Program-made: the position numbers and the translations under genes
Shown: piece by piece, positions 3,576-43,899 of the stretch
How the letters are laid out: each line of letters opens with the position of its first letter
Numbering within the stretch: the stretch's first letter is position 1
Notes under the pieces: model-generated
What the model was told of the DNA's origin: nothing
The model's input: the letters and a program-made list of their open reading frames with translations, nothing else
Databases searched by the model: none
Source of the DNA: Sphagnum magellanicum
Taxonomy: Eukaryota; Streptophyta; Sphagnopsida; Sphagnales; Sphagnaceae
Length of the DNA: 64,000 nucleotides
Assembly (NCBI GenBank): GCA_021904315.1
Contig: CM038907.1
Coordinates: forward strand, 22,699,223-22,763,222
Direction of reading: 5' to 3'

Positions 3576-4565
3576 TGCCCTCTTAGTTGGTTCTTTTGTC
3601 TTCTTGGACGTGGGTCCTCCCATTTTGTTCCTTGTATTCCCCCTTTTTTGGGTGCTTTGGTTAGTATTCGATTGGCGGGGTTTCATCATCTGAAATGGGT
3701 AGGGTAGGTTATGTTATGTTATGTTATGCTATGAATGAATGAATGAGTTAAATGGGGGTGGTGGTGATGGTGCACAAAATATCATAACAATGTTGTCCAC
3801 AACTCTGCTGCAGAGGAGTTGTCAGCAAGTCTTCTTTCATGCATATCTTGATATTCTATTTTGACAGGATCATGACTGGCCTACTACTACTACTACAACT
3901 ACTACAACTGACTCTGACAAAGAATTGGTGAAAATTCTGGTGATGGGTTTTTCAGGTAAGTTTTAAAGTGAGGCGGTGTGACAGTTATAGCTACAGGAGG
4001 AGGAGGAGGAGGAGAATGATACTCATCACTTCTCAAAAGATTTTTTGCCACAGGAGCAACTTCACTGCTTACCCTGTGAATTTTGGATGGGTATATAGCC
4101 AGTTGTTGCTTTGCTAGAGGCTGGAGGAGGAAATAGGAGGGAGGAACACAGAAGTGAAGTGATTTGTGAGGAGAAGAATTGGGTTTGTTTGGAAGTGAGT
4201 GAGTGAGTGAGTGAGTGAGTGATTTCTTACAAGATAGAGAGGACTGTCAGACAGTAGGGAGTTTTATTGTGTGGAAAGGAAGAGCAGAACATTGTACATA
4301 GAATTTGTTGCAACCCATTTTTGGTTTGTCAAGTCATAGAAGGGGAAAAAAAAATTTGCAACTCTGATCTTTTTATTTTATTTTGGGGATTTTTGTTTGC
4401 TAACAAATTTTCAGATCTTTTTGTCCAATGCTGCAAACAAACCCAACACCCCAAATGAATTCTTGAGCTTTTTCCATTTTCTGGCATCTTTGTTTTGGGG
4501 AGTTGTGTGGTGTGAGGAGAGAGATTTTTGTAGTTCCTGGAGTGTTTGCCTCTTTTGCATACAAA
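3576..4565 (+). promoter_or_regulatory. Upstream/5' leader region of AGPase large subunit gene
   Basis: This spacer precedes the AGPase start codon. It holds a GTGA microsatellite (about 4194-4222), a GGA-rich run near 3998-4014 and AT-rich patches (about 4345-4385), but I cannot place a TATA box or transcription start with confidence. Short open frames at 4267-4458 and 4400-4720 (minus) look like chance frames over the leader and first exon. Confidence 0.4.
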
Positions 4566-7500
4566 ATGGAAGTTTGCACAGGGAGTTGTAGATTAGTACT
4601 ACCCAGGCAATGTAATGTTCCAGCTCCTGCAAGAGAGAAGAAGAGCAATGGCATCCAGCACCAGCAGAAGAAGAAACACAAAGTTTGCAGTTTGGAGGTT
4701 GGTGAATCTTCGGCTTTCATGGGTGAGAAAGTGACTCATGGGTTTTTGAAAGTAGCAGGACAATGTGCTCCTCTCCTCAGACGAGACAAAACTTCCACAA
4801 AATTCAGAACCGCCAAGAAGCAACCCAAGCTTGCCATTTCATCAGTCCTCGCCGACTTTCCCTTTGAGACACTGGTGAGCTTGAAAGAGCCTATCTATCT
4901 ATCATCTGTGCAAAACCTTTTACTTTCTTTTTTTTTTTGTTTGGAGTGTTTCTGTTATTCATTTTTGTGAACCAGGAATTGAGCTGAGCTGAGCTGATTA
5001 ATGATGGATTTATGATCCTGATCTCCATGCCAAGCTCATCATGCGATACACTCTCAATGAGTGCCTCAATGAAATTCTTCTGCAGTGACACCCATGTTTG
5101 GATTTTTATTCTCTGTTTACAAATGGACTAAAACCAAGTTTGTAACATGAAATTGGCCACAATTCAGCAGATTGCAGATTGATGGTCATGGGTCTTCTCG
5201 TGCAAGTAGCTACCAAGACCATAGATTTGGTGAAACTTGAGCGCTTTGTAATTAATGAATAGTTGATGGTGTGGTTGTTTGTTTTCTGAAACCAATTATC
5301 AGCAGCAGGTTGCACCCAGGAAGCCGAAAGTGAAGGAGCTAGCCAACCTTAGTAAAGTGGTTTCTATAATCCTGGGAGGTGGAGCAGGCACACGTCTCAA
5401 CCCACTCACACTCCAACGTGCAACACCTGCTGTAAAAGGCTCCAACTTTTCTCTACTGGGTTCTTCTTTGCAGAAGCTTTCATTTGTCATCTTCTGATCT
5501 GTTTGAAAAGAATGCCATAGAAGTCATATAACCCCTTCATTTTCTTTTCTTTTTCTTTCTGGGGACATAGCAGACTCGGTACATAAGATTTTGATGAACA
5601 ACAATGCCACCATAACACTTGTTAAGAGTTTTGAAGATCTTCTTCTTTAGTAGCACTTCTTGTTGCTCTTCTGACGCAGGTGCCAATTGGAGGAGCTTAC
5701 CGACTGATTGATGTGCCCATGAGCAACTGCCTCAACAGTGGGATCAACAAGATCTACATTCTCACTCAGTACAATTCAGCATCTCTCAACCGTCACCTTG
5801 CACACACATACAATTTCGGCAATGGTGTCAACTTTGGCAATGGATATGTGGAGGTAACACATGTGCACACATGTTTTAAGACCTCCAAGCTACATACCCA
5901 CGATCAAACATGAAGGAAAAAGTGATGGGTATGAAGGGTGGTTTTTGCACCTGAATGGTGCCGCTCTCTCTTTTTTTCAATAATTTTATTTAGTGGGTTT
6001 TCATATGAGCTTTCTTTTCTTACAGTTGTGTGTGTCAACAGGTCTTGGCAGCCACACAGAGACCTGGGGTAGGTGGCCAGGATTGCTGGTTCCAAGGAAC
6101 AGCAGATGCAGTCAGGCAATACATGTGGTTGTTTGAGGTACCCTAGCTAATGCTGCAAAGCTTTCAGTTTTGGAGGAGCCATAATTTTCTCAATCTCTAG
6201 AGCTAATGTAAAATCACAAAAATTTAGTGCAAGTTTCTTTCTTCTCAGGTTTATACTAACTTATAGCCTCAATTAGGGAGAGAAACGTGACTAGAATCTC
6301 AGTATGTGTTTTTTCCAGGATGTAAAGAACATGGATGTGGAAGATGTCATCATTCTGTCAGGGGATCATTTGTATCATATGGATTACTTGAAATTCGTGC
6401 AGGTCTGTTCTTCATCCTGTTGCAATCCTTCCTCCTCTTCTCTCTCTCTCTCTGTACAAGATGGATGCACTTATATGAGACTCGCACCCGCACAACAATA
6501 ATAATAGTTGTGTGTGCGGGGTATGTATGGAACTGCTGTTTTTACATGATGGTTTTGAAATCCGTAATCTTGTGATACAATCAATGATGTCTCTGTCTCT
6601 CTGTTTCTCTCTTGGGTACCTTCAAACGTCATTTGCTTTGAGACAATTGACAGCATCAACGGCTATTTTGAAACTTGCAGAGACACAAGGACACAGATGC
6701 AGACATCACCATCTCATGTGTGCCAATGGACTACAGGTATATATATATGTACCTATGCTGCACATCTACCCCCTGCCTTTCAGCTCTGATTCCAGAAGCA
6801 AAAAAACAAACCATGAGATCACAAGAAGTTATGGGGAGCAAATTTTGGTTGCAATCTGAACGGTAAACAACAGGGTAACACTCACTGACTGATGATGTTG
6901 GTGCCTGTTTTGTGGATGGATGTTGTACAGCCGTGCCTCAGAGATGCACCCGTTGATGAAGATTGACAACAACGGGCAGGTTACCCACTTCAATGAGAAG
7001 CCCTGGCACGAGAGTCTGTCATCTATGGTATGTCTGAAAATTTGCACATTTCAGGTCAGCCTGTAAATGGTTCAATGCTTTACAATATGCTCCATTTGAA
7101 ACCTGATTCCCGAAAGTAGTTTTTTCCAGTTATCATTGAACAGCAGAGTCTAATTGATTGGGGTTTTCGCAGCAAGTGGACACCACAGTACTGGGACTCT
7201 CTCCAAATGAAGCAAAAAGGAAGCCATTTATTGCATCCATGGGCATTTACATCTTCAAGAAAAGGGTCCTTCTTAAGCTCTTAAGGTGTGTTGTTCTGGA
7301 TCAGATCATCACTTTGTCAAAAAGACTTCAGCTGAATCAAATTAGGGTATCAAAAAGACTGATGATCTTGCTGTGAGTTGTAGTACATGGGTACCTCCCT
7401 CCTCCCTCCTCCCTCCTCCTGATGGTTGGTTTCCATTAGCCTAACATGCTCTTGACATAATTGACACAGATGGCGTTACCCGACGGCGAATGACTTTGGA

Positions 7501-9430
7501 TCTGAAATCATCCCTGCATCTATCAAAGAATTTAATGTTCAGGTGTGGTGCCATTTCTCGTGCACAGAAAAATTTCTTGTGCATTAGAGGTGGTTGACAA
7601 GCATTAGAAATTTCAGGGTGTTTTTTTCTTTTTCTTTTTTTCAATTTCATGATGTAGCAGGCACACTGGTGATCCATCCACAGGAGGAATTAGCCAAATT
7701 TGGCTACAAGTCAGAGAGGAAAATAGAGAATTTTAAGAATGTTGCTATATTTTTGCAAGCTTCTGGAACCTATTGTCTAAATATGGTAATTTCACGAAAA
7801 AAACAAATTCCTGTGATCTCTTTGTAAGTGAGTATGAAACCCACTAATTATTGTTTCTGGGTCTCAACAGGCGTATTTGTTTAGGGATTACTGGGAAGAC
7901 ATTGGCACTATCAAATCCTTCTTTGATGCAAACTTGGCTCTCACAGAACAGGTAAATCACCTTTTTCTTCACACTCAAAGTCAAGATATAATATTCTGTT
8001 GTATAGATGGATAGCGAAACTTGTGCATGCGTTTTGAACATGAAATTGAAACCGACTGATGCATTTTTGGCATTTGATGAAATTGGGTTTTTTGCAGCCA
8101 CCCAAATTTAGCTTCTACGATGCTTCAAAGCCTACCTTTACATCGCCTCGCTACCTTCCACCCACCAAGATAGAAAGATGCAGGGTTAGTAGTTATAGTA
8201 CTCAAACCTTTTTTCTCCTGACTTCTGTACAAATTCTGAAGTTTATCTCACACATGTCATGAGCCTTCTTCTGTGAGGAAAACCACAATCTCTTCTAGTG
8301 GTTGGACAACTGGAAGTAGTTACATGCTTAAATCTTGTACCCATTTGATGATGATGTCTCATCATATGCAGGTCAAAGACTCTATTATCTCGCATGGTTG
8401 TTTTCTACAAGAGTGTAGTGTTGAGCATTCAGTCGTTGGAGTCCGGTCTCGACTTGAAAGTGGAGTTCAGTTGAAGGTATGGAGTCAAAAATGGGAAACA
8501 CCAAAGTTGTTGGAATCGATCAACTTGACCCATAAGAATTCCACAGCCTGTGCAGTGCTATTTTTCTTGATTCTCATGCAAAATAGGAAAATTTGGGAAG
8601 TTGCAAATCTCTCCAAATTTTTTTGTGTTCTTCTGATCATCTGTGTGGGGAGGTAAAATTTTTTGCAGGACACAATGATGATGGGGGCAGATTCATATGA
8701 GACGGAGGCGGAGATGTCCTCCTTGCTGGCTGAGGGCAAGGTTCCTTTGGGTGTTGGAGAAAATACAAGGATAAGGTGTGCTGCACCTTGTGATCTGAAC
8801 ACTGGATCTGACTTGCAAATCATTGTTTGTTTGTTTTTTCCATTGCTTCTTTTGGAGGAAAACTCTAAACTTTAACTTGTTTGGTGCTATTTTCTCGCTG
8901 TCTATGTTATGTACATGGCTGAAAGTGAAAGATAGATAATCACCTTGTGCACAACAAATGCAATACACAGAAAAGGGGAGAGAGGCTGAATTGTTAAGAA
9001 GGGTCAGGAGTTGGTTCTTTTGAGGGAAAGGTTGTAAACATATGTGGCAAAATTCGGTTTGAATTGTGCAGCAATTGCATAGTGGACAAGAACGCAAGAA
9101 TCGGCTGTAACGTGGTCATTGCAAACACCGATGTATGTTTCTAAACTCCTCTAAACATTTAACCCATGGATCCATCACAATTTTTTGTGTATATCGGTAT
9201 CAATTGGCACATATATTCCCTGGATCACTAGTGTGGCCACGTGGGTGGGGCTTTGTGTACTACTCAAATGGGAGTGAACTTTGTGGCTCCTATATAGTTT
9301 GTGAACCCAAGGTTTTTTTTTGTTGCAGGGTGTGCTAGAAGCTGCAAGACCAAAGGAAGGGTTTTACATCCGGTCTGGCATCACAATTATCTTAAAGAAC
9401 TCCACAATTATGCCTGGAACGGTAATTTAG
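4566..9430 (+). CDS. APL: ADP-glucose pyrophosphorylase large (regulatory) subunit, plastid; 15 exons
   Basis: The AGPase heterotetramer makes ADP-glucose from glucose-1-phosphate and ATP, the committed step of plastid starch synthesis. Exons: 4566-4874, 5303-5431, 5680-5853, 6042-6137, 6319-6402, 6681-6736, 6931-7027, 7173-7285, 7470-7542, 7871-7951, 8098-8184, 8372-8476, 8669-8775, 9072-9132, 9329-9430. All junctions are GT-AG with matching phase and give about 557 residues without a break. Residues 1 to about 100 form a basic, Ser/Lys-rich plastid-transit-like leader. GGGAGTRL (128-135) is the nucleotide-binding loop, SGDH (250-253) carries the catalytic-position Asp252, and EKP (305-307) the sugar-phosphate Lys306. 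The C-terminal part (from about 430) is the left-handed beta-helix. Thr144 in RATPAV is the large-subunit form, where catalytic small subunits have Lys. The start is the first ATG giving a transit-type leader. Confidence 0.96.
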
Positions 9431-9532: not shown

Positions 9533-9767
9533 AGTAGATCCCAAGTTGAATTAGATTGTAGCAAGTATCATACTGAGGGTGATGATTTGAAGTAGATCCC
9601 AAGTTGAATTAGATTGTAGCGAGTATCGTACTGAGGGTGATGATTTGAAGTAGATCCCAAGTTGAATTAGATTGTAGCGAGTATCGTACTAAGGGTGATG
9701 ATTTGAAGTAGATCCCAAGTTGAATTAGATTGTAGCGAGTATCGTACTAAGGGTGATGATTTGAAGT
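9533..9767. repeat. 58-bp tandem repeat, four copies
   Basis: A 58-base unit (agtagatcccaagttgaatt and onward) repeats four times with exact 58-base spacing (anchor positions 9541, 9599, 9657, 9715) and only a few A/G differences. High identity suggests recent expansion. It lies just past the AGPase stop, within or next to the 3' UTR. Confidence 0.92.
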
Positions 9768-12728
9768 TGAGAGTGGAACCTTCTCTATCCAAAGGATTCA
9801 AATATCTTTTGTGCCAAAAATATGTCAAAAGCTTGTTGTAGGCACTAGATAAGCTTTGGTGAGTGGAGTGTATATAAGGTTGCAACCTAAGGCTATAATG
9901 TCTATAGTTTCTTAATTGGGTCTTTTACATAATGGAAGATGGTTCATAAAGACTTAAAACTACATCGGTTTGATTGTAGCACTTGATGATAGGGTATAGT
10001 TCGGTCCAACTATGGAAACAATCACACATTTGACATCGTACCATGCAAGTGCTCAATAGTTGTGATTGAAGTTGCAAGCAACAACCCAAAAGTTAAAAAT
10101 CATTTGAAAGTCTTGGAAGATATTAGGAGAACATTAGAAGAATAATAAATGACCAAAGCATCATAATTAAACCCTAACACTAGATAAAGCAACTATCATT
10201 AGTGTGGGGCCAAGAGTCATGGGCAAGGTGAATGTGAAGCTTGAAAATTATAGGCAAATTTTGGAATCTATATAACATATACTTCATAGTTTTTCATGTT
10301 ATTAACTAAAATCTCATTTGAGTATTTTGTCGCATATTTCTCACCCTTGTTTATGCTCATCTTTTCACTTATGTTTGAAATTATGTTTAGACAAAGTTTA
10401 TTGTAGTTTGTCATAGCTTTTGTTGGTCATACTACTAGTTGTGGTAGTTTTTGTTCCCATGAAAAAATTAGCTCCCAATTGAGCCTACAAATATTCTCAT
10501 TGTTTAGAAATCATGATTCTTTTGAAGTCATGTCTATGTCTAGGGATAAAATAGCGGCTTCCATTGAGGAAATATTTGTTGTTCTTAAACATTTGCAATT
10601 TAAAAATAAATCTTTTCATGAGCCTATTACACATCTTGAGTTTAGTGCTCTACATACAAAATATGTGTTTCTATAACATATGAAACAACCACAAATCAAT
10701 CTCTTAAATAATTTAATAGCCACATTCCAATTTTCAAGGTTTTATGAATTGGATTCACGTAGGCATCTAACTTCATCTTCATCAATACCAAAAGTAGCCA
10801 AACTCAATTTGGTCTTATTGGCACTTTCTATTTACAACTTTATTTGAAGCATTTTGTTCCTTGAGTTCAACACTACCTTGCCACCTTTGGTTGATTGCAA
10901 ATCAACTACTAAACTATGATCCCATCATTCATGTCCACAACCAATAGTTGTGTATGCCTTTAAATTGAAGCTATAAGCATGTGTTATTTCTTGGAATGAA
11001 GTTACATTCGTGATCAATTCCAATTTGGATTATGTGATGATGTAAAACATTTTTTTCTTAACATGCTAAATCCATCATTAAATTAAATGATTTCACAAGC
11101 TATAAGATGTGATAGTCAACTTTCCAATGTTGGGGGCAAGTGTTGGGAACCAAAACAAATGAAATTTTGTGTCTTTGTCGTCATTGCACCTACTAATGAT
11201 TTCACACAAGAATGATTCCATGCAAATCAATGAAACATAATTCAAGCCATTGATAGAGTAAAAAATATATATCAAAAAATAATAATTTTTATTTGTATTA
11301 TGAAAGGATCACATGGTATTTTTAATGAATTATGAAAGAGACATGACCACCATTCAACATGTTTAGTGTTAACCACCATTTAAAATCTTGAAGACTTCAA
11401 AAAACAAAGACATATTGTTCTAATAATTGCCTCAAATTAAACTTCCATGCATCAGACATTGAAAATCTTAGTTGATTTCAAAAACACATCGTGTCTATTG
11501 TTACTAGAATCATGATCAAAAAGTAAAAAGCTATCAACTATGAAAGTTCAAATATTGTTTGAACTTAATGCATGTTTACAAAAATTTGGTCCAACAACAT
11601 AAATGATGATATTAAAGAAAACCACACATCCACCTATTGAAACCATCAATGGTTGAAGCTTTCTTTTGGGACTTATGTGCATGGTATCAAGGTGTTGGAA
11701 GCAATTCTTGTGATTAGTTGAAATGGAGATAATCCAAAATGTAATTTTGTTTAATTTGGTTATAAACAAGTTATGAAAATTTGAAAAGTTAAATATCCTT
11801 CACATTTTTTCTTACATGTTAAAACTTAATAAAGAAATTTAACATCTTTCCACCCCAACAAATCAAAATTTTGGTTACTATGAAACCAAAAACCAAAACA
11901 CATATATATGTTTAGCCAAGTGGTTAATTTTAGACCCAATTTCTTTTGTTAGAACATGTCATTAGACCACATATAAACAGAGTTGGTTTCCATGTCATTT
12001 CATTCATTTGAACTCATTCATCATTGGATTGTTCTCATTTATCTTACATAATCCAAAATGGATTGGCATAAGGGGAGGTTTCATTCTAAAGCATTGGAAT
12101 TTGAAGTTCCTTTTACAAATCAATTTGGTGAAATTCATCATATAAGTACACATGATGTAAATATGAGCATGAAAATGAAAAAATTGATGATGTCACACAC
12201 ACAAGAAAAGTTAAGTAATTGCAAATGGAAGGAAAATCAAATGGCTTTAAACCTTTGGTTGTAAGAAGGAATTTGTGCATGTCATAGAAAAGACAAATAT
12301 GTTTTTTTAAATAATTTCTCCTTCTACAAGATTTTGTAATATAACATGATGTGAAATTCCTTCTCAATATTACAACTATATTAAAAACTTGAGTCCAAAC
12401 ATATGTTAACATCTTAGTTTTAACATTAATAATATGATTACACGACTAATCTTGAAAAAAGGCATCCAATCACCATTTGGGCAAGTCTAAGTAAGGTATT
12501 AAAAAGCCACCACTAGTGTGAGCACAATTTAGTTTCAAAATGTTTTGAAGTGGTAATTAAACTAATGTTGATCATGTTTAATGTATTTAAACAATGATGT
12601 TTCTAAAATATTATTGGAACATTTGGAACTAGTACCCAAAGCATTTTCAAAGCCATGTAACAAATATTTTTGTTGTTTATCCTTGTTCATAAATACTTGA
12701 ATTAAATATCAAAATGGCAATTCTTGAA
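9768..12728. other. AT-rich intergenic spacer
   Basis: No convincing gene, RNA or transposon domain is visible. The open frames (10479-10676, 11548-11769, 12058-12264 and others) are short, overlap in both strands and look like chance frames. Confidence 0.5.
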
Positions 12729-12806
12729 AAAATCTCAACTACACATTTACATCATAATAAAATGTGTTTTACTTTGGGTCATATATTTTTTTAAATTCAT
12801 ATATGC
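12729..12806. repeat. Left copy of 78-bp direct duplication flanking mitochondrial insert
   Basis: The block from aaaatctcaactacacattt to attcatatatgc matches 17775-17852 almost perfectly in the same orientation; the only differences are shifts within the T/A run in the middle. The two copies bracket the mitochondrial-like segment, as a long target-site duplication would. Confidence 0.88.
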
Positions 12807-12839
12807 AAAATGATATATTGATATTTATTTTGTATGCAT

Positions 12840-13090
12840 TTTGTAATCATAACCTCCTTGCAGGAGAGAGACCGCAGTGTTCGCACTATTCTTTAATCAT
12901 CATGATAATTTTCCTGTATTTAATGTTTAAAGAACAAACCTAGTAAATGAAGTAGCTAGGTTGTAAGACCTATATTGAAATGAAGTGTAATCAGATTGCT
13001 CAATCTATAAATATAGATCTGTATGATGTTTTGAATTTCTTTATTAAAGATTTACGCTTGCAGCCTTCATTCAAAATGATAGACAACTTT
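12840..13090 (+). other. Possible LTR-like fragment at the left edge of the insert
   Basis: The stretch has an LTR-like order: a TATA-like tataaatata at about 13006, then ttattaaaga near 13042 and cttgcagcc. No internal retroelement domain or second copy is visible. It may equally be unannotated mitochondrial sequence. Confidence 0.2.
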
Positions 13091-13871
13091 GGAATTATTT
13101 TATAGACGGCTTAAAAATAGAAACTGACAAAAGTATAACTACTATTAGGAAATTTGTTATTATACCATAAACTTGTAAATTAATGGGTCTTTTACCTTCC
13201 ACAGTACCTATGTTCTCACTTTGCGCCTTTAACTCAGTAAAACAAGTCATGATCAAACTAAGAACTATAGAAGATATTTAGTTGGACCAACCAATAGGGC
13301 AAAGTAATCAACTTTTTACGATGGTTAACAACAGAAAAGAAAACACATTTTATTTTCTCCCGCTTGGCCGTGTACTTGAGGTTAAGGAGCAAAGGAATTA
13401 AATTGCACAAAAAGACAAAGTAATCAAGCAACATGGTTGCTTAATTGGCGAGAAAAAATATACTTTTATTCATCAAAAATGCGCTCAATTTAGAAATCTG
13501 ATTATAAGCTATTATGTGCTTTGTTTACCATGTACGCAAAAGGAAATGATCTAAGGTTAAAGCTATAGATCCACGATATAGATAAATAATTTCAGTTATA
13601 AAATAATATAGTATATCATAGGAAAACATAACCAAATGACCCGCCTCTATGATGTTTTATTATGGTAATATACCAACCTATTTCAAAACTTCCAGTTCCA
13701 ATCAAAGCATATAGATCTGTAAAGAAATTGGTATGTATAATTACTTTGGTAGTACTCGTTTCTTGATTGGAAAGAGAAAATCTCTTTTCTAGGAACACAG
13801 TCAACCAAAGTGGGAAACTATTATGTTTGCTTCTCCATGATCTGTCGTCATGGAAAAAATGAAATAAATAA

Positions 13872-13875
<4 letters not shown>

Positions 13876-13907
<32 letters not shown>
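13876..13907. repeat. (TA)n microsatellite inside ccmFC exon 2
   Basis: About sixteen TA units interrupt the ccmFC-like coding sequence between the parts reading HDRSL...LYEDGK and the part containing PLWLTVF. A dinucleotide expansion here destroys the frame and supports pseudogene status. Confidence 0.85.
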
Positions 13908-13910
<3 letters not shown>

Positions 13911-14172
13911 TTATTTTTATTTTTCATTTTTTCCATCTTCATACAAGGGCGCAATAATTGACAACAAGTTGATTATGGCACAAAGTGATCTATCGTGCTA
14001 AAAAATAAATGGTTTTTTTAAGGACAGTTCATAAATAATTAAATTACCACAAATGGAATGAAAAGTGGGTCCATGTAATTGATCAATACCTCGCAAACAA
14101 CAATGTTCCTTCCCTATATGTAGTTTGGAACCCAAAGGCAATAATTGAATAAACTGTCTCTTTTTTGTGTTA

Positions 14173-14942
14173 GTTAACCTAAACCGCAACATTACTACAA
14201 AGGCTTGGCTTCCGAACCGTACATGAGCCTTTGGCCTCATACGGCTATTCTCAGGGGAGTAAACTAAATAAAATAGAAAGTAGAGATTTACATGGCGTCT
14301 GCTTAGTTTATTGTCAGGACGGAAAAAAATCTTTTTTTTGTCCATTTTGCTCATATAAACTCCTCGCCATTTATTATGTTGTGCCCTGAGTCCCCATGTC
14401 AGCCTTTCTTCTGGGAATTCATCATTTTACTAACGCGAGCAAAGTAATTACCCTGAAGGTTTTTCTTTTTGGAAGGATCCTGTTCCCACTAGCTCACGGT
14501 CTGGCTGGCCTGCCAGTTTTACTGGAACTTCATGGAAATTATCATGTTCCCTGGTTAGATGGTTGGATGTGAGATTTATTTCATGAGGAACGGTACAAAC
14601 GTAGATGATATCATCATGACCTCTCTTTTTGTACCGCTAAGAATACTTAATGCCATTTCGCCAACTAGTGTTACCTATGACCTTTCTCGCCATTGGCAAG
14701 TCTCTCAGTGTGGTCAGTACTGGGTGTTTTTGAGTAGTGAAGCTTATACTCAATTACATGGGTTCATCCTAAGTCCTTAAACCTTTTGCACTAATTTGGA
14801 ATGAAGCCATCTTCTTATCAAGGTTCAAAGTCAACTGAGCATCTCAGCGGCGAGATTTAAAACCCGAATTCAACCAAAGTTCACGCCATGTAGGCGTGGG
14901 CTTGAAAGTAATGATGGTCACACATAAGCCATCGGGTCGCAC
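14173..14942 (-). other. Group II intron of ccmFC, about 770 bp
   Basis: On the minus strand the intron starts with the group II consensus GTGCG at 14942-14938 and ends before 14172 with ...TTAAC. Joining the flanks restores the family sequence ILS-NTKK in frame. Domain V is recognisable near the 3' end (14214-14246). The position corresponds to the conserved ccmFC group II intron of plant mitochondria. No maturase frame lies inside it. A nuclear copy would not be expected to splice. Confidence 0.85.
14214..14246 (-). ncRNA. Group II intron domain V hairpin
   Basis: Read on the minus strand the sequence begins AGCCGTATGAGG and ends CTCATGTACGGTTC, the classic helix of plant organelle group II domain V, with the CCAAAG loop between. 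It lies about 40 bases from the intron 3' end, leaving room for domain VI. Confidence 0.88.
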
Positions 14943-16079
14943 GACAAAATAACACCCATAACAAAGATGCAAACTCCTCCATGTGAAATCTTCATAGTCA
15001 TGGGAACTTTTTGAAAGTCATGACCAACATTTATTAGTCTTTTTGGTAAGGCGCGAACAATAAAAAAGATATTCCAATTATTTTTGAAAACAAAAAAAGA
15101 GCTTGTTGAAAAGCAAGCATAAAATAAAGAGCCAAAAATTTGGTTTTTTTGTTGAGGCAGAAGGTTTTTGAAAATCACAACAAAAAAATAAAAAATATTT
15201 TTGATTTTTTCTCTTTTTCCAAAAAAGAAAAAAATTCTCTCTTTTCATTTTTGCCTCTTTTCTCATCGGGCCAAAGTGTTTGGCGCTTTCTTCTTTGTGC
15301 CTGCTTACACAGTTCAATTCATTCTATTCTAAGCTTATGCTCCTTGTTTGTCAACCTATCATGCCTATAATTAGATGATAAAGGAAATATACAAGATAAT
15401 AAAAAACAAAGCACACTACATAAAGATTCTAAATATGATAAGTCTCCTATAAATTTGAAAATGAAAAAGTGAAAATAGGAAATAAAAAAGAAAATAAATG
15501 CGTTTTTAGCTCTAGTTTGGGGGGAGCTTTTCCTAATTATGTTGGTAATAAAATGGGTCTTGCTTTTACCAAAATGATCCTTTCTGTTTTGTTCATAGAA
15601 CGTTAGGTGCATGAGTTTTGCCTATAATATTTGTGGCGTTTCCCTATGGTAATTTGCTTTACATATTAATTTCTAGGTTTTTTCATTTTATCGCACAAAG
15701 ATCCCTAGTAGCTTTCAACTTGTTTTATTTAGCTCCTACTATATGCTTATCAGCATCATCTAGACGTGGTTGTTCTTCATTCATCAGTAATTTTTTTCTC
15801 TTTTATCTGACTAACGGTTGATTACGAGCATTCATTCTTTTTCCCCTTTTGGCCTCTTTCAACAACTGATCTACATTTTTAGCTTCATTAATAAGCACCT
15901 AATCTGATAATCGAACTTCAACTTTTCCAATTTGAAGTTTTTTTCTTGCAATTTTAATTTATTTACTTTATTTGGATTATCTACGTACCTAGAATATAAC
16001 CAAGTGCCCCTCATCGCAGTAAACATGCCTATCCTACTATCAACTATCCTAACATCCTCTATGGATGGGGTTTTCCTCT

Positions 16080-16560
16080 GCAAAGTGACCTATAGCCTCT
16101 CTAGCAACCTTTGTGGCTTGCCTTTTTTTTTTCATACTTTACTTTATTACTTTGTTCACGACCCGCATATTTTTTCGAACTATTCCATGAGGAGTACCTC
16201 TATTGGGCGTACTATTAGAATGGCGGTTTGACCTACAAAAGCAATGAGAGAGCACACAATAAAACTGTAAAAATTTCTTAGTAGGCTTCTATTACCCACA
16301 AAAAAGTAATAGTTAAGCAGTCCTATAGTCTTATGGGCTAGGATATCTAAGTATGATAGTCCTACCAATCTTCTCATCACAGTTGGGAAGCCTTTTGCCC
16401 CATTCAAAGATCCAAATGTCCAAATGGTTCACCGGTTCCACTGAATGCTCGTAATTAGATGCTCTTGGGCATCTTTGCACAATGCGCTTTAGGTGTTTTA
16501 GATACCTTGGGCTTTGATCAAATGTTATGCCTTCGCCCTTTGCTTCGATTTTCGTGAGCA
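16080..16560 (-). pseudogene. Group II intron maturase, domain X remnant
   Basis: Minus-strand translation of about 16407-16180 reads FPTVMRRLVGLSYLDIL, then GLLNYYFFVGNRSLL, then SLIAFVGQTAILIVRP. This follows the domain X pattern of group II maturases (RL..LS..DI, (G/N)LLNYY.F.DNR, then a basic helix). Preceding sequence (16561-16331) is open in another frame, so the gene is frameshifted. The reverse transcriptase part is not recognisable further upstream. The fragment lies outside the ccmFC intron, upstream of exon 1 on the same strand, so it probably belonged to a different mitochondrial intron. Domain X binds the intron RNA during splicing; this copy looks dead. Confidence 0.65.
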
Positions 16561-17774
16561 TAGCAGAAATTGAAATACTTTTTTTTTAGGGATCTTGGTT
16601 TTTTTGTTGTCTTGGTACGATTGTTATTAAGCTTCGTTGTACAAGGAAGACGATGTGATATTCCATTGGAGTCTTGCCAAACACGCTCGGGCTAATATCC
16701 CACCTACACCTCACGTTCACAAATTTTAAAAAATAATAATAATAAATATTTTTCTTCGTTCAACTGCATCTCGAAGACACGGTTGGGTATCGCCCATGGG
16801 TTGGCTATTCCCTATGATTCCCTTTCACGACAAGCTATGTTCTCCATTGGAAGTTCATTCCGTTGGGTGTCTCTAGCAATATATCTATTAGATAAGTCAT
16901 GTCGTCTCGTTGCAGACTTCTACAACGTCTCATTTGTTTGGCACAAATGAACACTTTATTCGATGACTTCACGGTCGCCCTTAATTATAAACTACTTCAA
17001 ATCTTCGTTTTCGGGAGGGATGATCAACTCCACAAATATCGATCAAAACTTGAAAACGTGTATTAGTATGATATTTTAGAAACCATAATAATTGAAATAG
17101 GTAGTTAGGATCGGTATATAATATATTTTCATGTTTTGATTTTTGAAATTGATGTATCCATTTTGGTAAAGTAGCTATCAGAGATTTGAAAAACAATTGG
17201 TTACCCACAAATCGTCTATTTTTTTCTATAAAGTGGGCGCATTAAAATACGAGTCAAAGGGCGAAGCAAAGTTTAGTATTATGAGGGATAAGTTGTCTAA
17301 AAAGGGGGGAGAGGGGAGAACTTTACTAATCTCGAACACTCACTTTATTGAATCCTTCATGGGCGGAATTTACCCGTCATAACAAGGCCACAGGTTATGC
17401 TTTTCAAGCCTTAACCTACAATTTATATTGTAGCCATTTAGAGAGCCATGTCTTCAATGACTTCATTAGCCAAAAAATAACTCGAAATAAAAAATATGGG
17501 GCCCAAAGTCAGAATTTATGTATAGCTTACATCAAAAGGCCAAAGGTCCTTGTACAAGCTTTCGTCTTTCTTAAATAGAGGAGACCCTTCTTTATTCTAT
17601 GGAAATTCTTCTATGAATAAAAGTTGGATGTATAAATGAGGGTTGCAAAGATTCAAGATAAGGACCCCCACAGTAATAAATATGTTGTGTGGCCATTTAG
17701 TCTTCAGTGTAAATGTCAAAATGTTACGGAATGCTCTACTACAAATTGGACTGATTTGAGCTTGTCAACTTAGT

Positions 17775-17852
17775 AAAATCTCAACTACACATTTACATCA
17801 TAATAAAATGTGTTTTACTTTGGGTCATAATTTTTTTAAAATTCATATATGC
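17775..17852. repeat. Right copy of 78-bp direct duplication flanking mitochondrial insert
   Basis: Direct repeat of 12729-12806. AT-rich DNA resembling that left of the first copy resumes immediately after it. Confidence 0.88.
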
Positions 17853-20800
17853 TTATAAATCATGGATTTGAAAATGTTTTTGTAACCAATCATGTTTTGC
17901 CACATAGGTTTGACTAATTAAATACCACATAGGTTGGGTTAATTAATATATTTGTTTTAAAACTCTCTTAGTGAAGCACAATTGGTTCCTTATATTGCAA
18001 TTGCACTTAGACCCATTTATTACTTTGTCATAAAAGAATTTGTGCCAATTTTAAAAATATGTTAAGAAAAAAGGTTTATTCAACATTCCAAATTTCCAAC
18101 TTTTGTTTTAATTTTTTAAATTTTCACATAAATTGTTGAATTTCTTTAAATTTTTGTTAATTACTATAGATTAAAAATAAAATAGGAAACGCATCATGGA
18201 AAGAAACATTTCAAATGTGTTATCGTCGTTTTGAATATGTTGTGATGCATATTAGCCTTATATTTGTACATGTTATCTTTGAACATGTAATAAAAGATGT
18301 CTGACTTGTTTTGGAAAAAGTTGAAAGAATTTAAATTTAAGGTCAAACTAGAAAAATGTGAATTTTCTAGTCCAATGAAATGGAATTCCTTGATTACATC
18401 ATTTTTATTCATGCCATCAACATGGACCTTCATAAGGTTTAAGTTAATGTTGGTAGATTCCTAGATTTGGAGTGCTAAACTTGGGGGTTCAAGTTCAAAT
18501 TATTGTGACCTTGACCTAAATTGACACCCTTTTGGTGGAACCAAAAGAAAAATTGTGTTGTGGAACTAGCCATTTGTTAGAACCACCATCATAAACTTCC
18601 TAGACCACAATTTCACAATGTTGTGTGTCTAAAACACATATGAAACATGTATAAATACAATCCAAGATTATAATGTGGATGACTTTATAATGGAATAAGA
18701 TGTTCAAGATTTTCATCCATACTAAAATCTTGCATTCTACTTATATGTGCTTCATACATGTTTTAAATGCATGACATCCATGTCTAAACAATAGAAACCT
18801 AGATGAAAAAAATTCACACAATTACTATCACCAAATTGTGCCCCATAAGTTTGTGACGTGAAACCAAAACCGTGAAAAAAATCTTGAATACAAGTTTAGG
18901 TTGTTGAACAAGTTGATTTTCTTTAAAAGGTTGGCATGTACATGTTGAACTTTATAAGTATTTGATTAAAACTAATTAGAACTCCATAACTATATAATCC
19001 CCAATTTTAATTTGTTATAAAACTTCAAACCTATAAAATTTCTAATTTTTGGGAGTGTGTAGTATGTACATGGAACTAGACTTGGTTTTCAAACTGAGCC
19101 TAAAGATTCTTGAATTTGAAAAAAAAAAGTGCTAAAACCAAAAGTATAGGTTCAAAAATTTGAAAAATTAGGCTTGAACCCACACTTCAACCTATCAAAA
19201 CTAAAGTTGAAGTTACTTTTTAAAAGGAAGAATCAACCAACACCAATTTAAATCATTATGGATTGAGTTGTATGCATATTTTGGAAGTGATATTCCATGT
19301 TCTATTGGGTGAATACTAACTTTTATTTATGCTTCAACACCCATTATTCCAAGATAACCCTTTTCATTTCTTTGATTATGAAGGATTGACCTTTCTAATG
19401 GGACCTAAAAGCTCAAATTGTTTCAATCATTGAAGGTTTCATTTGCAACATTTTATTTTTTGATTCATGTTGGCATTTCTAAACCATGTTTTTTGGAGAC
19501 TAACAATTTTGCATTAGGATTTTTTTAAACATAAACTAAAGATGATGATTTTTTCCATCTTGTTGGTTTACATTTTTGGAAATTTCTTTGTTGAAAATAT
19601 CTAAGATTCATGATATATATATATATATATATAATTATTATTGACAAATTTGAGGTCAATAGTTTCATTTGTTTGAAAAATTCAACTTGAAATATATTTG
19701 AAAACTATTCACAATAACACAAACCAAAACATGTGAAACAAATGTACTCATTAGTAAAGTTGTGAATAAGTTCATGTTGAAAGTGTGTGTTGTGTCTATT
19801 CAACAATGTTTCAAATATACATTGAAATGAATGTTAAATTTGAAATGAATATAATGAGTATGCAATACCCAAAAACTCAATATAAATAATGTAATTAATG
19901 TCTTTATGGTCAAAATGACTTAAAGTGTACCATGCATATAACCATTTAGTAAATACAACTACTCTTTATTTGAAACCATAAATGAAATACATATTAACAA
20001 AAATAAAATGTTTTGTTCTTTATATTTACAAATTCAAATGCATTAATCAAATATATGTCATTTGAAGGCTTTAGAATTTATGCAACATGAATTAATGAAC
20101 TAAACCTTTATGCAAATGTTTATGTTGTTGTAATGGCATGAAGCAAAGGAAAGCCAATATAAATAGACTGTTTGATTTGGACTTTGGATTACGTTAATAA
20201 CCTCATTGATATATAATGTCATGATTTTTAGGACCACTTTATATATATATATATCCAAGGTGGATGGTTACCACATGTTTTTAGTGATATGCCAAGTGGC
20301 ATTTGTTTTTGGCTAATGATTACAGTTGACTATGCACAAATTATCTAGCTTGAAATGAGTGTTCTTTTGTGTTTGGAATTCAAGTGGCTACAATTTTTTC
20401 CACCTTTTTATGTAGGGGCTATCAGATGCAAAGGAAGGTAAAGTGGATAGCAACAAAACCTTGACATAATAGTTATTGTGGCTATTGAACAGTTTGAAGA
20501 ATGTGTCAAAATATGTCATGATGCCAAAATCTAAACCAAAGACGAAAAAGTTAAAGTATATTCCAAGCTCATGTTTCTATCAATTTTATAATCTAAAATA
20601 ATAATAAAAATAAAATGCAAACACTTTGAAAAGTCATTGAATTGACTAGCCACATTGTAGATTCCTTCACAATATCATATGAAGTAGAACCTTCATTCAT
20701 TGCCATGTTGTTCCATAGGCTAACCATTACTATCTTTTGACTATAAATCCCACACCATCTTCATCCAACAACTTGACAATAAAATTTTCCCATAGTCCAT

Positions 20801-24900: not shown

Positions 24901-27560
24901 ATATAAGGTGAAAAATATTTACTGTTCATCTTAGACATTTCTTAGTTCACTAGGGTCTATTTAGATAAAATCCAAATGAGTTTTGCATGTTTATAATGTG
25001 ATTATTTAAGACATATTTGGAGTGATCTTTCACTTGTCTTTGGATTCATCTTCATGTAATCAATATTCTTAAAGAAGATTGCCAAGTTGTTTATGAAATG
25101 TCAAATATATCCAATCTTTGGCAGACATTATTAGTATGTAAAACTTGTTTGGTTGATAGGAAAATCATTAGTACAACAAAAATGTCTTCATTTTGACTAA
25201 GTTTTCCATATCTAAAAACCCAATGAATTGAACAATCTATAATCGTTTTAAAACATGCAATAGTTGAAAAAACATTCAATGACAATAAAAAGTAAATAAA
25301 GATATATTTGAACCACAACATCATTTTCATAATTGCAACCGAAATGTGTACATGAGCAAAACAAATATGTCAAACCTTGCAAGGAATATATCAAAAAGTT
25401 ATTATACAAATTTAGTACTTGATTATCATTCAACATGTTTTAGGTCCCAAATAAAACACATTTGATTTGTTATTTTCAACAATAGTAAAAAAAAAATTAT
25501 TAAAAAAAACATTATGGAAAATGATCGTGAATAACAAGCTTACATGACATTAATTGATCAAATTTAGGTTTTTAAAAAGTAAGTTTTGACCTACAATGCA
25601 ACTTTGCTTCCAAGAATTATTGCATGTTCCCAAACCTAGCATGTTTACCAAACTTCTTGACATCAAAACCACTAATCACATTCTCATGGAGTTGCTTTAA
25701 GATATCTATGTCAAAATTGTAATTTAATGCATGAAATTTTCATTGGTGCTATTTCTTCAATCTTTGGGCAATGCCACAAAGAAGCATTGGACATTAACAT
25801 TAGGATATCCTCTTGCATTTATGTGTTTGTTTACTTCCCAATGGTTTACAAACTCCTACATAGGCAAGGTTTAGGGACTTAGGTGAAATAAAGCGTTGAT
25901 GGATTGAAGTTTGTTTTAGAGTTTCTTTCATAAAAAAAATAGGAAACAACATGATAAGATGTCAAGAGAAAGTAGCTTGTGAACTTTGAGGCACATGTCA
26001 AAGTTTAAAACCATAACAATCATGCACCCCAAAGAAAGATCAATGGATTTGACAACATAAAGTAAAAATTGTGAACACCATTTTACATTACTATATTGTA
26101 AGAACAACTATTTGTGTTTTGGAGCAACCCACGTTCACACCTTGGGCAATATCTCATGCCTCACCTTTCTTACCTTGGAAAACAATCCTAGTAGTGTCAA
26201 TGATGGTGAAATTGGGGCAAAACACATATTATGTTTACATCACTATTGGTTTTATCAATATCCTAGAACATTTTTAGACATTCTTTAATCTTCACTTGGA
26301 TTGTTTCAACTATTATTGAAACAAACATAATGACTAGATTTTAGTCATGTGCGTCCTCCTTGAAAATTAGGAATGTAACCACTTTTAGAATCAACAACAA
26401 CTGGCAAGGTGGCCGCCATAAGCCTATACTAGTTTCCTAAAAACTCAATGTTCAACTACAAGGTAACAAATGTCGAAATAATTAAAGCACAAAATTTTAT
26501 ATATATATATATATATGATTCCAATAGTTTGGATTTGGAAACTTTGTTTAATTAGAGAAGATAGCAAAGCTCCAAAACACAAGGATTGTGCAAAATCCCC
26601 AAATAGAGGAAATTTCAAATCTAGAGACACAAATCATGAGATTGAATTTGAAAGAAAGCTTGATGGGTGTGTACATCCTCCACAATGAGACAAAAATGTT
26701 TTTCAATTGACAAGTTTTGAATGTTTCAACCAACATTTTTAACTCTTATGGAACTTTGTTTTGACACACTGTTGGTGGCATTGTTCCATTCAAATGGGAG
26801 GTGGAGCTTGACAAGCCATTGAAGGTGGATATATCATCTATTAATTATGAAGCCAACCTTGTCTTTCTCCTTTTATTGCTTGAAAATATAGCCATGAACA
26901 CATTTTTCTACTTTGGCAATCAATTTTGCATTTATGTAAAATTAATTTTAGGACCTAATCAATTCACATTGCAAACCCATGATCAACATCCATTTGGTTT
27001 ATGTCACAAGTAGGTGTTGCTACTACATTCTTCCTCTCACACCATTTTCAACATTAGTTTTGAACAATGGGAAAAAGAAAAAAGGTTTCTATGTCAAACA
27101 ACGTCACCTATTTTTGTTCACGAGTTCAAAACCAAGCTCATGATTGAGTTCAAAACTCAGTTCACAAATCACTCAATGATTACGTGTCAAAGAAATATTA
27201 TGATGACCCAACAATTAAATCATAAATTTTTTGCCATGGACATCTCAAATTTCCCAAATTTTGACATTATGGGGTCAAAATAGGTCGAAATCGTAGGTGA
27301 ACATTAAATTGCTTAATTAATCCACATTGGTTTGTCATAATCAAAATCAAATCATTTTTGACATTTTCACAAGTGTTAAAAAAAATAGTTTGATCTTGGA
27401 TGCCCCAAAATAAATCTTGAGATAGGCAATCAACAAAATGGTTGCCAACACAATTGCATTAAAAATGCAAATCATAGTAGAATTAAACAACCTCATGTTG
27501 AGTTGAGTTTTAGTATTTGATCAAAACTTTTTAGACTTGATGACTAACAACAAAGAAGAA
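21965..27560. other. AT-rich intergenic spacer
   Basis: Long, gene-poor, low-GC DNA with only short scattered frames on both strands and a TA microsatellite near 26498-26516. I see no conserved protein motif. Confidence 0.45.
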
Positions 27561-28269: not shown

Positions 28270-28767
28270 TTGCACACATGATTCTAGTAACATTGGTTTA
28301 TTATTATTATTATTATTATTTGTGGAAAATGTTGAAATTTTCCCTCCAAAAATTGCATTTTTTTTTTTTTCAAACAGCAAAATTTTGTGAAGGAAAAAAT
28401 AGAGAAATCTTTTATTAGCAAATTTAATAATTATTTGGTTTTTCAACATAATGGAATCTTCAAAAATCAATTAATTAGTTGACACACATGTGTTGAAGAT
28501 GCCCCTGTCCTACCAAGTGTATGTATGTATGTATGTATGTATGTATACATACATACATACACACACACACAAGGTAGTACCATGGCCAAGTTCAACATTA
28601 TAGTGTCAAATAATTATTTGATTTTTGAAGATTCCATTATGTTGAAAAATCAAATAATTCTTAAAATTTGCTAATAAAAGATTTCTCTATTTTTTTCCTT
28701 CACAAAATTTTGTTGTTTGAGAAAAAAAAATGCAATTTTTTGAGGGAAAATTTCAACATTTTCCACA

Positions 28768-28798
<31 letters not shown>

Positions 28799-28850
28799 GA
28801 CCTAATTAGTATGGAACTACTTGCAAGTTGCCATGGTACTAGGGTACATA
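28270..28850. mobile_element. Foldback (long inverted repeat) element
   Basis: The left arm (28299-28470) and right arm (28618-28798) are reverse complements with modest divergence. Each has an ATT/AAT trinucleotide run outside, then sequences around gtggaaaatgttgaaatttt, caaaattttgtgaaggaaaa and ttcaacataatggaatcttc. The centre is itself a GTAT/ATAC palindrome at about 28545. Pairing continues weakly outward to about 28250 and 28860. It lies about 500 bases upstream of the RABA5 start. Partial relatives occur at 51640-51870 and 60860-61050. Confidence 0.8.
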
Positions 28851-29135
28851 GGGTACATCTAACAAGAACTTAGTTAGTTGCAAAAAAAGAAGAAAGGGTA
28901 TAATTATGTAGTTTACCAATATTTTCATAAGTGGCGGTATTTTTGCTAGCAAATGAAGTGAAGTGAAGTGGGTTGGGGGGAGGGGGGTGTGGAAGATTTG
29001 CAGATCTTTTCCCTTGTTGCGTTGCAGCACCAGCTTCCGCACAAAGAAGCGCAGGCAAATCGGAGTCTTTCCACTAGCGTCGCATGGATCATCCCTGTTT
29101 TGATCAGAACTCTTCAGTTCAGAATCGCAAGCGAG

Positions 29136-29180
<45 letters not shown>

Positions 29181-29265
29181 ATTTGGTGCCGAATTTGGTC
29201 GAGATTTGAAGTTGTGAGCACTGTTTTTGTAGATCCGGTTTAGGAATTGAGTTCTTGTGGTGTTG

Positions 29266-29296
<31 letters not shown>

Positions 29297-29339
29297 GTTC
29301 TTTGTTTTGTTTTGTTTTGTTTTGGGGGTAGGGAGGGAA
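28851..29339 (+). promoter_or_regulatory. Upstream and 5' UTR region of RABA5 gene
   Basis: The region includes a GA microsatellite (about 29143-29179), a GGT run (about 29268-29289) and TTTTG repeats (about 29303-29324) just before the start codon. GA-rich tracts are common in plant 5' leaders. No TATA box can be fixed. A long minus-strand open frame here (28839-29786) runs through these repeats and antisense to the Rab exon, and is rejected as a shadow. Confidence 0.5.
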
Positions 29340-30814
29340 ATGGCAGCTTACCTTGATGATGATGAGGAGAGTAGCGAGGACTATCTGTTCAAGGTGGTGT
29401 TGATAGGGGACTCGGCCGTCGGCAAGTCCAATCTGCTTTCCAGATACGCACGCAACGAATTCAACTTGAATTCCAAAGCCACCATCGGTGTGGAGTTTCA
29501 GACTCAGAGTATGGAGATCGATGGCAAGGAGATCAAGGCTCAGATCTGGGACACTGCCGGTCAAGAGCGTTTCCGTGCTGTGACTTCCGCTTACTATAGG
29601 GGTGCTGTTGGTGCCCTCATTGTTTATGATATCAGTCGCAAAGCCACCTTCGACAATGTAGGTCGCTGGTTGGAAGAACTCAGAGGTACCATTGCATTTC
29701 CTTTCAACTGCACCCAAGTTGTTGTCACTCATCAAACAAAGAAAAAAATGAAAGAAAGAAGGAGACCGAGAACAAGATCCACCCAAGAGAAACTCTTTTT
29801 TTTCTTTCTTGGGGTGTTTCTTGTCTTAAGTGGAAGGAATGTGAAAAACTTCATTTTACAGACATTGGGTTGTTGCAATTTTTAGGCTTCAGGAAAACTG
29901 TAGTTTCAGATATCGAAGGAAAATGGAGACACGCTCAACTCTGGTAACAACAGATCACGCACTCCTAGATGCAGCAGTTTGAGAGAGAGAGGGGGGGAAG
30001 AAGAAGACCCATAAGAAACTCTCTTGGGGGGCGAGGGGGTTGGGTCTTTCTTGTCTTTACTAGAAGGAATGTGAAAAACTTCATTTTACAGACATTGGGT
30101 CGATACAATTTTTATGCTTCAGGAAAAATGTAGTTTCAGATATTGAAGGAAAATGGAGACACACCCAACTCTGGTAACAGTAGGTCGTGCACTCCTAGAT
30201 GCAGCAGTTTTCATCTTCAGTTCTATATAATGCAAAATGCTGAAAGATGGAGGGAGGGAGAGACCTGACCAACCAGTTAGGGCATGACTTCACACCCCAA
30301 CTCGTTCTTGTCTCTCTCTCCCCTCCTCCCTTCAGCTTAATTCACAATTATGAATTCCAGTTTGTCAATTTCAAAAAAAAAAAAGTCCATCTGCAAAGAC
30401 AAAACCCATGTTGTCATGCATTCATTCATTACCATTGCTGAGAATGAAGTGGTGTAGTGTTCATTGGCTATGTTGTTGATGTTATTTGCAGTGCATTCGG
30501 ATGCGAGTGTTGTTGTGATGCTTGTGGGAAACAAATGTGACCTCGACAGTAGACGGGAGGTGACAAAAGAAGAGGCCACAGCTGTTGCAGAGAAAGAGAA
30601 CCTGTCTTTCATTGAGACTTCAGCCATGAATGCCACCAATGTGGTTGATGCCTTCCAGACAGTTGTGAAGGAGATCTACAAAATAGTTAGTAAGAAACCC
30701 CTCCTCACATCTTCGGTCTCCATGAAGTCCAATACTGTTCTTGGCAGCAGTCAAAGGTTGGCAGGTCTTGATGCTGCACATCCAAGAAAAACTGGTTGCT
30801 GCACAACTGCTTGA
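29340..30814 (+). CDS. RABA5: Rab11/RABA5-type small GTPase; two exons
   Basis: This is a membrane-traffic GTPase of the plant RABA (Rab11) group, acting in trans-Golgi, endosome and cell-surface transport. Exons 29340-29685 and 30492-30814 (GT-AG, phase 1) encode 222 residues. Motifs: P-loop GDSAVGKS (23-30), switch I ATIGVEF (47-53), DTAGQE (71-76), NKCD (129-132) and ETSA (157-160). The C-terminus ends GCCTTA with Cys218 and Cys219 for geranylgeranyl anchors. [12 protein letters not shown] followed by [11 protein letters not shown] is typical of the RABA5 subgroup rather than RABA1, 2 or 4. The acidic N-terminus ([10 protein letters not shown]) fits too. The start is the ATG after the G/T-rich leader; an upstream in-frame start would add only leader-derived residues. 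All motifs are intact. Confidence 0.95.
29781..30211. repeat. Tandem duplication of about 230 bp inside RABA5 intron
   Basis: Two head-to-tail copies (about 29781-30006 and 30007-30211) share long stretches such as gaatgtgaaaaacttcattt and ctcctagatgcagcagttt, offset by about 230 bases, with a few substitutions. Both lie wholly in the intron (29686-30491). Confidence 0.88.
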
Positions 30815-33800: not shown

Positions 33801-34318
33801 TGAAACAGATTTGTTTTCCATTTAGAGCTTTGTTTATGTGATTTTTGTGTCTCTTCACATTTCTTGGTTCTTTTTTCAGTGTAAGGAAGAACAAAAGTTG
33901 TGTCCTAAAATATTAACAACTACATATCTGATCAATAATGTAGTAGATGATGATGAGAAAGGTCAAAAAGCACTGATGGCACAATTGTGTCTATCCCCCC
34001 ACTACTTGCCACTTCTTTAGGACAAATTTGTATGGAGAAAACTATAGATGAGCATGGTTGATCAGGCAGCAAAAGAAGCTTATATAGCTGCTAGCTGCCA
34101 TGGATTTGAATCCATTTTGAAAAGCGCAGCTCGGAAGGAAAAGCAACTTGAAAAGGTTTTTGAAGAAAAATGCTAAACACAAAAGAAGCCCCAAAATACA
34201 CTTTTGTTGTGCATCAAAATAGCAATGTATCATCAATGCACCATATTTCGTCATGCATTATGTTATCATGCATTATGGTATGTCATCAACATAAATCCTA
34301 TGGTACATATGAAACCTT
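30815..34318. other. RABA5 3' flank and intergenic DNA
   Basis: The first few hundred bases are probably the RABA5 3' UTR. Beyond that I identify no gene. Two stretches look mildly exon-like but match no family I know: 32884-33084 (plus) and 33870-34175 (plus, one internal stop, lysine/glutamate-rich end). No transposase or reverse transcriptase motif is seen. Confidence 0.4.
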
Positions 34319-35690
34319 GACACCTGATATACATTTAACATCACTTTTTAATCATAACTAACTATAATTTATCATATGTTTTTTTATACACCAAGGATTT
34401 ATTGATACATTAAGGATTCGTTCAAACATTAAGGATTTTAATCCATCTAACCATAGAAAGAGCAAAGAATTTTTTCAAAATAGATGGACAAGAGGTTGTC
34501 ACATTTCCAAGTTTATAGATAAGGTAAAAAAAATTGTTAATTTAATAAAAAAGCCCATTAATCTACTATCAACACATGATGTGAGCAGTACATTGAATAT
34601 ATTAATAATGTATTTTCACATTTGAGAATTAAATCTTACAGATGAAAAATTGACACCTAATATACATTTACCATCATTTTTCAATTATAATGAATTATTA
34701 TCAACCATATGTTATTGATAGATTAATGATCTATTGATACATTGAAGATCTTTGATACACTAAGGGTTTTATAACATGTCTAAATATAGAAAGAATGTTT
34801 TTTCTTTCAAATAGATGGACTAGAGGTTACCACATTTACAAGTTTATGGGTAATGTAAAACGATTGTTAAAATAATAAAAAACCATTAATCTACTTTCAA
34901 GATGTGATGTAAATAATACATTGAGTGTAATATAAACATATTTTCACATGAAAAATAAACCTTACATATGAAAATTTGACACCTAGTATACATTTACCAT
35001 TAGTTTTTTATTATAACCAATTATTATTAACCATATGTTATTAATAGACTAAAAATTGATTGATACATTAATTATCTTTTAATGCATTAAAGATCATTTG
35101 ATACAATAAGGCTTTTTCAACTCATTTAAACATACCAAAAGCAACATTTTTTTCAAAATAGATGGACAAAAGGTTGCCATACTTCCAATTTTATAGGTAA
35201 GGTAAAACAACCATTAATTTAGTAAAAAAACCATTAATCTACTAAATCGAAATGTAATGTGAGAAATACATTGAATATATTACAAACATATTTTCACAGT
35301 TGAGAAATAAACCTTACATATGAAAACTTGACATCTAGTATACATTTATCATTAATTTTTTGATTATAACTAACTATTATTAACCATATGTTATTAATAC
35401 ACTAAAGATTTATTGAGACATTAATGATCTATTGATACATTGAAGATATTTTGGTACACTAAGGATATATTAACCCATCTTAACATAGAAAGAGTAGGTA
35501 ATTTTCCAAAATAAACAAACAAAAGGTTGCCTCATTTTGAAGTGTATGGGTAAATTAAAAAATTAATTAATTTAATTGAAACGTGCCACTACGCTACTAA
35601 CATGTGGTGTGAACAATACATTGAGTGTATTATTAGTATTTGACATTTGAAAAAAAAATCTTTGCATATGGGGAGAAATTGACATGTTTT
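34319..35690. repeat. Satellite-like tandem array, units of about 330-350 bp, four copies
   Basis: The anchor word acacctaatatacatttacc and its variants occur at 34319, 34651, 34979, 35331 and, weakly, 35681, giving units of about 332, 328, 352 and 350 bases. Each unit also contains gatggacaagaggttg-like and ttgatacattaaggat-like segments in the same order. The copies are substantially diverged. The array is AT-rich and non-coding. Confidence 0.85.
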
Positions 35691-43861: not shown

Positions 43862-43899
43862 CCCATGATACCCAGAGGATGCATGCTGAGTATCATGGG
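43862..43899. repeat. Short perfect hairpin
   Basis: cccatgatac (43862-43871) pairs perfectly with gtatcatggg (43890-43899) around an 18-base loop. No T-run terminator context or known RNA family is apparent. Confidence 0.6.

Follow-up and report, generated by a model that had tools for sequence, protein, structure and literature searches.

The window analysed here is a stretch of 64,000 nucleotides from the moss Sphagnum magellanicum (assembly GCA_021904315.1, contig CM038907.1, positions 22,699,223 to 22,763,222), in which two nearly identical direct repeats of 78 bp enclose 4,968 bp carrying remnants of the mitochondrial genes nad9 and ccmFC. We read the locus, with moderate confidence, as a nuclear mitochondrial DNA segment (NUMT) that was captured at a staggered chromosome break and is probably composite. 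All coordinates are positions within the window.

Direct repeats at the borders of the insert

The left copy of the repeat occupies positions 12729 to 12806 and the right copy positions 17775 to 17852, both on the plus strand, as defined by pairwise alignment. Compared without gaps the copies agree at 75 of 78 positions, and when gaps are allowed 77 bases are matched with no substitution and only two one-base insertions or deletions (indels), both located in an A/T-rich part; the first 55 bases do not differ at all. Homology ends abruptly on both sides, since a local alignment that included 200 bases of flanking sequence per side gave no extension. The original prediction of near-identical, same-orientation copies that define exact insert borders is therefore borne out. 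The direct repeats stop exactly where the insert begins and ends, as is expected of a target duplication formed at a staggered break, and the opening five bases of the insert, AAAAT, are also the opening five bases of the repeat.

A pair of this length lies far outside chance expectation: the longest exact repeats in 50 sequences simulated from the 64-kb window with a first-order Markov model reached at most 19 bases (mean 16.6). A blastn search of the window with both copies (E<=0.01) returned the two copies themselves and, at 25440-25467, one partial hit 23-29 bases long with E 0.001-0.003, and a 26-base piece of the repeat, with up to three mismatches allowed, was found in the two copies only. 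The concern that the 78-mer might be a common dispersed repeat is thus not borne out within the window. The window has 20 families of direct repeats that are 40 bases or longer, this pair among them, and in 16 of the other 19 families the copies are spaced by no more than 353 bases.

Mitochondrial gene remnants

Exon 1 of nad9 and much of ccmFC with a group II intron lie on the minus strand of the insert, confirming that mitochondrial genes are present between the repeats. The Nad9 and CcmFC queries used throughout were seed-plant reference proteins, and codon numbering follows the CcmFC reference. Pfam scans covered positions 12807-17774, 29001-33900, 3601-8500, 43501-48400 and 52001-56900.

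Exon 1 of nad9 (75 codons, 16984 to 17208) was recognised through matches to chains of solved structures, to the Pfam family PF00329 and to the Nad9 reference. Read from 17208 to 16984, it has an in-frame GTG as its likely start, contains no internal stop and is followed immediately by a stop codon. At E<=0.001, a slightly longer reading of 86 residues hits 27 different chains from solved structures of complex I and related enzymes, most strongly chain C of the Arabidopsis structure 7ar7 (E 5.6e-25). The frame matches PF00329 with E 7.6e-6 and 26.9 bits (cut-off 22.5), and this match continues for about 12 residues beyond the stop. Three bases past the exon on the minus strand lies GGGCGACC, which resembles the start of a group II intron. 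A search with the full-length Nad9 reference found no second exon of nad9 anywhere in the 64-kb window; a match of 24.6 bits at 43975-43895 was rejected as noise, as shuffled queries (n=40) reach 26.2 bits.

A moss is the likeliest source, as two of these features may indicate. The nad9 of the moss Anomodon is reported to start with GTG (PMC3187804), nad9i283 has been described as an intron specific to mosses and nad9i246 as one specific to hornworts (PMC10012718), and a cob-nad9 spacer is described in mosses (PMC5493672). The in-frame GTG and the occurrence of GGGCGACC three bases after codon 75 could reflect a moss donor, and the intron site may be that of nad9i283 or that of nad9i246. A remnant of a reverse transcriptase gene is reported inside nad9i283 of two mosses (PMC3187804), and the Pfam scan detected no reverse transcriptase in the insert, which counts against the moss nad9i283 intron; perhaps only part of the nad9 intron is present.

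The ccmFC remnant consists of exon 1 (14942 to 15602, codons ~66-257), a group II intron with approximate ends (14175 to 14941) and exon 2 (13655 to 14174, codons ~258-408). The CcmFC reference matched the insert in five minus-strand pieces, distributed over 15602-14942 and 14174-13655, of 102, 82, 60.8, 50.8 and 29.6 bits, with a best joint E of 9e-43 and a maximum of 26.2 bits among shuffled queries (n=40). The weakest piece (15602-15465, 29.6 bits) barely exceeds this noise level, and two further matches in the window, at 8362-8568 and 48675-48514 (23.5 bits each), fall below it and were dismissed. In a frameshift-tolerant alignment 91 of 183 residues of exon 1 are identical to the reference, with two frameshifts and one stop (score 284), and 100 of 145 residues of exon 2, with one frameshift and one stop (score 439); five shuffled controls for each exon scored at most 50 and 49, respectively. 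One of the exon 1 frameshifts, at 15210, lies within a poorly matched part, and the exon 1 stop falls in a stretch that is absent from the reference protein. A (TA)n microsatellite inside the exon 2 remnant (13877-13907) likewise falls where the reference has no counterpart. Compared with the reference protein, the remnant lacks roughly the first 65 and the last 34 codons. The terminal parts of ccmFC are conserved in other plants.

The intron was delimited by its boundary letters, with GTGCGACC at the 5' end, and by Rfam matches to a domain V at 14210-14250 (RF04357, E 1.4e-5; RF00029, E 5.4e-4), both of which are below gathering score; a default scan of the window at gathering scores returned no match. 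Further low-scoring matches in the insert were set aside as chance or duplicate hits: petD (E 0.13), which overlaps domain V, Yfr10 (E 2.5), sraA (E 3.7) and a ureide permease Pfam match below its cut-off (E 0.035). In viral contigs the 6 pattern matches to the nad9 piece and the 17 to the ccmFC piece included none encoding a relative, and the same was true of the 137 matches to the ccmFC piece in prokaryote genome contigs.

The damage to ccmFC may be older than the insertion. The gene is reported as a pseudogene in hornworts (PMC10012718), in the lycophyte Huperzia (PMC3325193) and in the liverwort Treubia (PMC3187804), and the ccmFC of the mitochondrial donor may have decayed before transfer.

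Composition of the insert

Three stretches, together 2,795 of the 4,968 bp, contain no gene recognised by the Pfam, Rfam or reference-protein searches. The first (12807 to 13654, 848 bp, not assigned to a strand) matches no Pfam family in six frames and could be mitochondrial spacer or other, possibly non-mitochondrial, filler. The second (15603 to 16983, 1,381 bp, minus strand) follows nad9 exon 1, includes GGGCGACC at its nad9 end and has no convincing Pfam or Rfam match. The third (17209 to 17774, 566 bp, no strand assigned) lies upstream of nad9 and is taken as mitochondrial spacer from its position. Their G+C contents are 30.5, 37.4 and 36.4 percent, in that order, against 34.3 percent for the ccmFC part and 28.9 percent for nad9 exon 1; the 2-kb flanks have 29.2 percent on the left and 27.8 percent on the right. 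Composition alone therefore gives no border.

Read on the minus strand, the order is nad9 exon 1, then GGGCGACC three bases further on, and the interior of ccmFC 1.4 kb later. The absence of nad9 exon 2 and of both ends of ccmFC suggests that the insert is probably a composite of joined mitochondrial fragments, or else heavily deleted, and the idea of one intact mitochondrial stretch, implicit in the original prediction, is not supported. Judged from this gene order, at least two breaks in the mitochondrial order should be present unless the donor was rearranged or deletions came later, and the stretch from 15603 to 16983 should hold at least one junction towards ccmFC. Plastid DNA inserted in tobacco is reported to consist of joined fragments (PMC7037861), and the truncated nad9 and the missing ccmFC ends would fit an insert of that kind.

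Origin of the insert

The most economical account is that a stagger of about 78 nt was filled in while mitochondrial pieces were captured, giving a probably composite NUMT with 78 bases copied on both sides, and we consider this reading reasonably probable. Opposite strands of the chromosome would have been cut or nicked about 78 nt apart, and pieces of mitochondrial DNA, joined to one another before or during repair, would have been end-joined into the gap; copying of both single-stranded overhangs would then have placed the 78 bases on each side of the insert. After insertion the copies would have gained their two one-base indels, and ccmFC its frameshifts, stops and (TA)n run. Of the earlier proposal, a staggered break filled in on both strands or template copying during repair, the insertion and the duplication are supported and staggered-break copying is the best mechanism on offer; capture as a single intact segment is not supported.

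Such an event would be of an ordinary and known type, with a target duplication of unusual length. NUMTs are held to be passively captured at pre-existing breaks, and in a primate set 17 of 71 carry target duplications of 1-11 nt, which are put down to both overhangs of a staggered break having been copied (PMC2567098). The present insert resembles NUMTs captured by end joining in being mitochondrial filler in nuclear DNA, apparently made of several fragments and decayed later, and differs from them in its 78-bp duplication. A further parallel is offered by staggered breaks and paired nicks in plants, where direct duplications of tens of bases occur beside the break: a 52-nt offset between nicks in Arabidopsis gave insertions averaging >80 nt that were mostly copied from adjacent sequence (reviewed in PMC5103219), and in rice, insertions with tandem duplications have been ascribed to offset nicks in excision repair (cited in PMC7407515). 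In contrast to these, the copies described here are separated by 4,968 bp of organelle-bearing filler. No NUMT with a duplication this long was found among the literature matches listed, which does not show that none has been published.

Several points weigh against simple fill-in around a composite insert. The duplication is about seven times as long as the longest in the primate set (PMC2567098). The Arabidopsis insertions exceeded the 52-nt stagger, and a duplication may accordingly differ in length from the stagger behind it; the review interprets these insertions as microhomology-mediated joining (PMC5103219). The composite structure, for its part, depends on seed-plant reference proteins, and later deletions or an already rearranged donor would give the same picture.

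Insertions longer than the stagger shift some weight from simple fill-in towards repair in which a broken end, through polymerase theta or a replication-based process, copied or captured mitochondrial pieces and re-copied 78 neighbouring chromosomal bases before it was closed. This is the strongest of the alternatives, although we regard it as rather unlikely. The apparent switches within the insert, seen as the truncations of nad9 and ccmFC, speak for it, as does the interpretation of adjacent-copy insertions at staggered nicks as microhomology-mediated joining (PMC5103219). The AAAAT shared by the start of the insert and the start of the repeat is a possible microhomology, but one of five A/T bases carries little weight where G+C is only 28-29 percent.

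It is improbable that the 78-bp tandem duplication is older and that mitochondrial DNA entered it later, precisely at its junction. Tandem duplications of similar size are reported in rice (cited in PMC7407515), but this history would need a second, unrelated event to strike that very point, and both copies are of full length.

Least probable are two further explanations, both of which we consider very unlikely. The first is a mobile element that carried mitochondrial pieces, the 78-bp blocks being either its short terminal repeats or target copies made when mitochondrial RNA was retroposed. As with transposable-element target duplications, same-orientation repeats stand at both ends of the insert, but they measure 78 bp rather than 5-6 bp, the latter being the length reported for long terminal repeat (LTR) elements within a maize NUMT (PMC4632043). 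Inspection of the insert ends revealed neither the TG...CA repeat ends of an LTR retrotransposon nor a target copy outside the repeats; there is no poly(A) at the insert ends and the ccmFC intron is retained, which argues against retroposition of the type seen with long interspersed nuclear elements. Terminal inverted repeats of a DNA transposon were not visible by eye at the insert ends, none of the 21 inverted pairs in 12400-18200 connects the two ends, and the six-frame Pfam scan of the insert (E<=1) found no transposon protein. The second, an assembly artefact in which organelle reads were misjoined into a nuclear contig, draws some support from the organellar ccmFC pseudogenes of hornworts, Huperzia and Treubia, given which decay alone is no proof of a nuclear copy, but it sits poorly with the three frameshifts, two stops and microsatellite of the ccmFC found here, and a chimera is not expected to produce a sharp-ended 78-bp direct repeat.

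Age and significance

With no substitution among 77 aligned bases, pairwise divergence of the copies is below 3.8 percent (95 percent bound). The proposal that this divergence could date the event therefore holds only weakly: the copies bound it from above and constrain the age loosely. The damage to ccmFC, three frameshifts and two stops over 328 aligned codons, is compatible with a modest age, when read against a distant reference protein and a donor gene that was possibly a pseudogene already.

If NUMTs are passively captured at existing breaks (PMC2567098), a duplication at their borders tells what shape a naturally occurring chromosome break had. One of 78 bp would then indicate that a plant genome underwent a widely staggered break or patch copying; it also supplies precise borders for comparison with the empty site. 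A bolder and doubtful extension, which we regard as improbable, is that organelle DNA is regularly captured in this plant lineage at breaks whose stagger measures tens of bases. Were it true, regular capture, for example at offset excision-repair patches on both strands, would leave NUMTs flanked by long duplications that record the shape of natural breaks. The evidence is a single locus.

Nuclear setting

Split genes on both sides show that the insert lies in a nuclear chromosome. To its left, Pfam identified coding pieces of a nucleotidyl-transferase, GlgC-like (ADP-glucose pyrophosphorylase-like), at 5363-5479, 5677-5829 and 8363-8476, and to its right Ras-family coding in two pieces, at 29391-29756 (E 5.8e-39) and 30494-30679 (E 2e-15), which from its translation appears to be of Rab type. 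The presence of nuclear genes in the same window, together with the decay of ccmFC, speaks against the repeats and insert being contiguous in the mitochondrial genome. No Pfam family was detected in 43501-48400 or 52001-56900, and ARAGORN found no tRNA gene in the window.

Other repeats also occur in the window. About 3 kb to the left of the insert, at 9533-9767, are four tandem copies of a 58-bp unit with 98 percent matches. To the left of the Ras-family gene, at 28295-28802, is a near-palindrome with 69-base arms that are 99 percent complementary, nested arms and (ATT)n-like ends, which looks like a foldback element or one resembling a miniature inverted-repeat transposable element. Units of 326-353 bp with 75-77 percent matches are arrayed in tandem over 34304-35576. 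A short dispersed sequence is present in two orientations at 2154-2246, 45564-45619 and 48611-48699, the pairs found being 86-89 percent alike, and its copies at 45564-45619 and 48611-48699 have GATTAAAGATTT and CTGGTTTATAGCCAGATTT in common.

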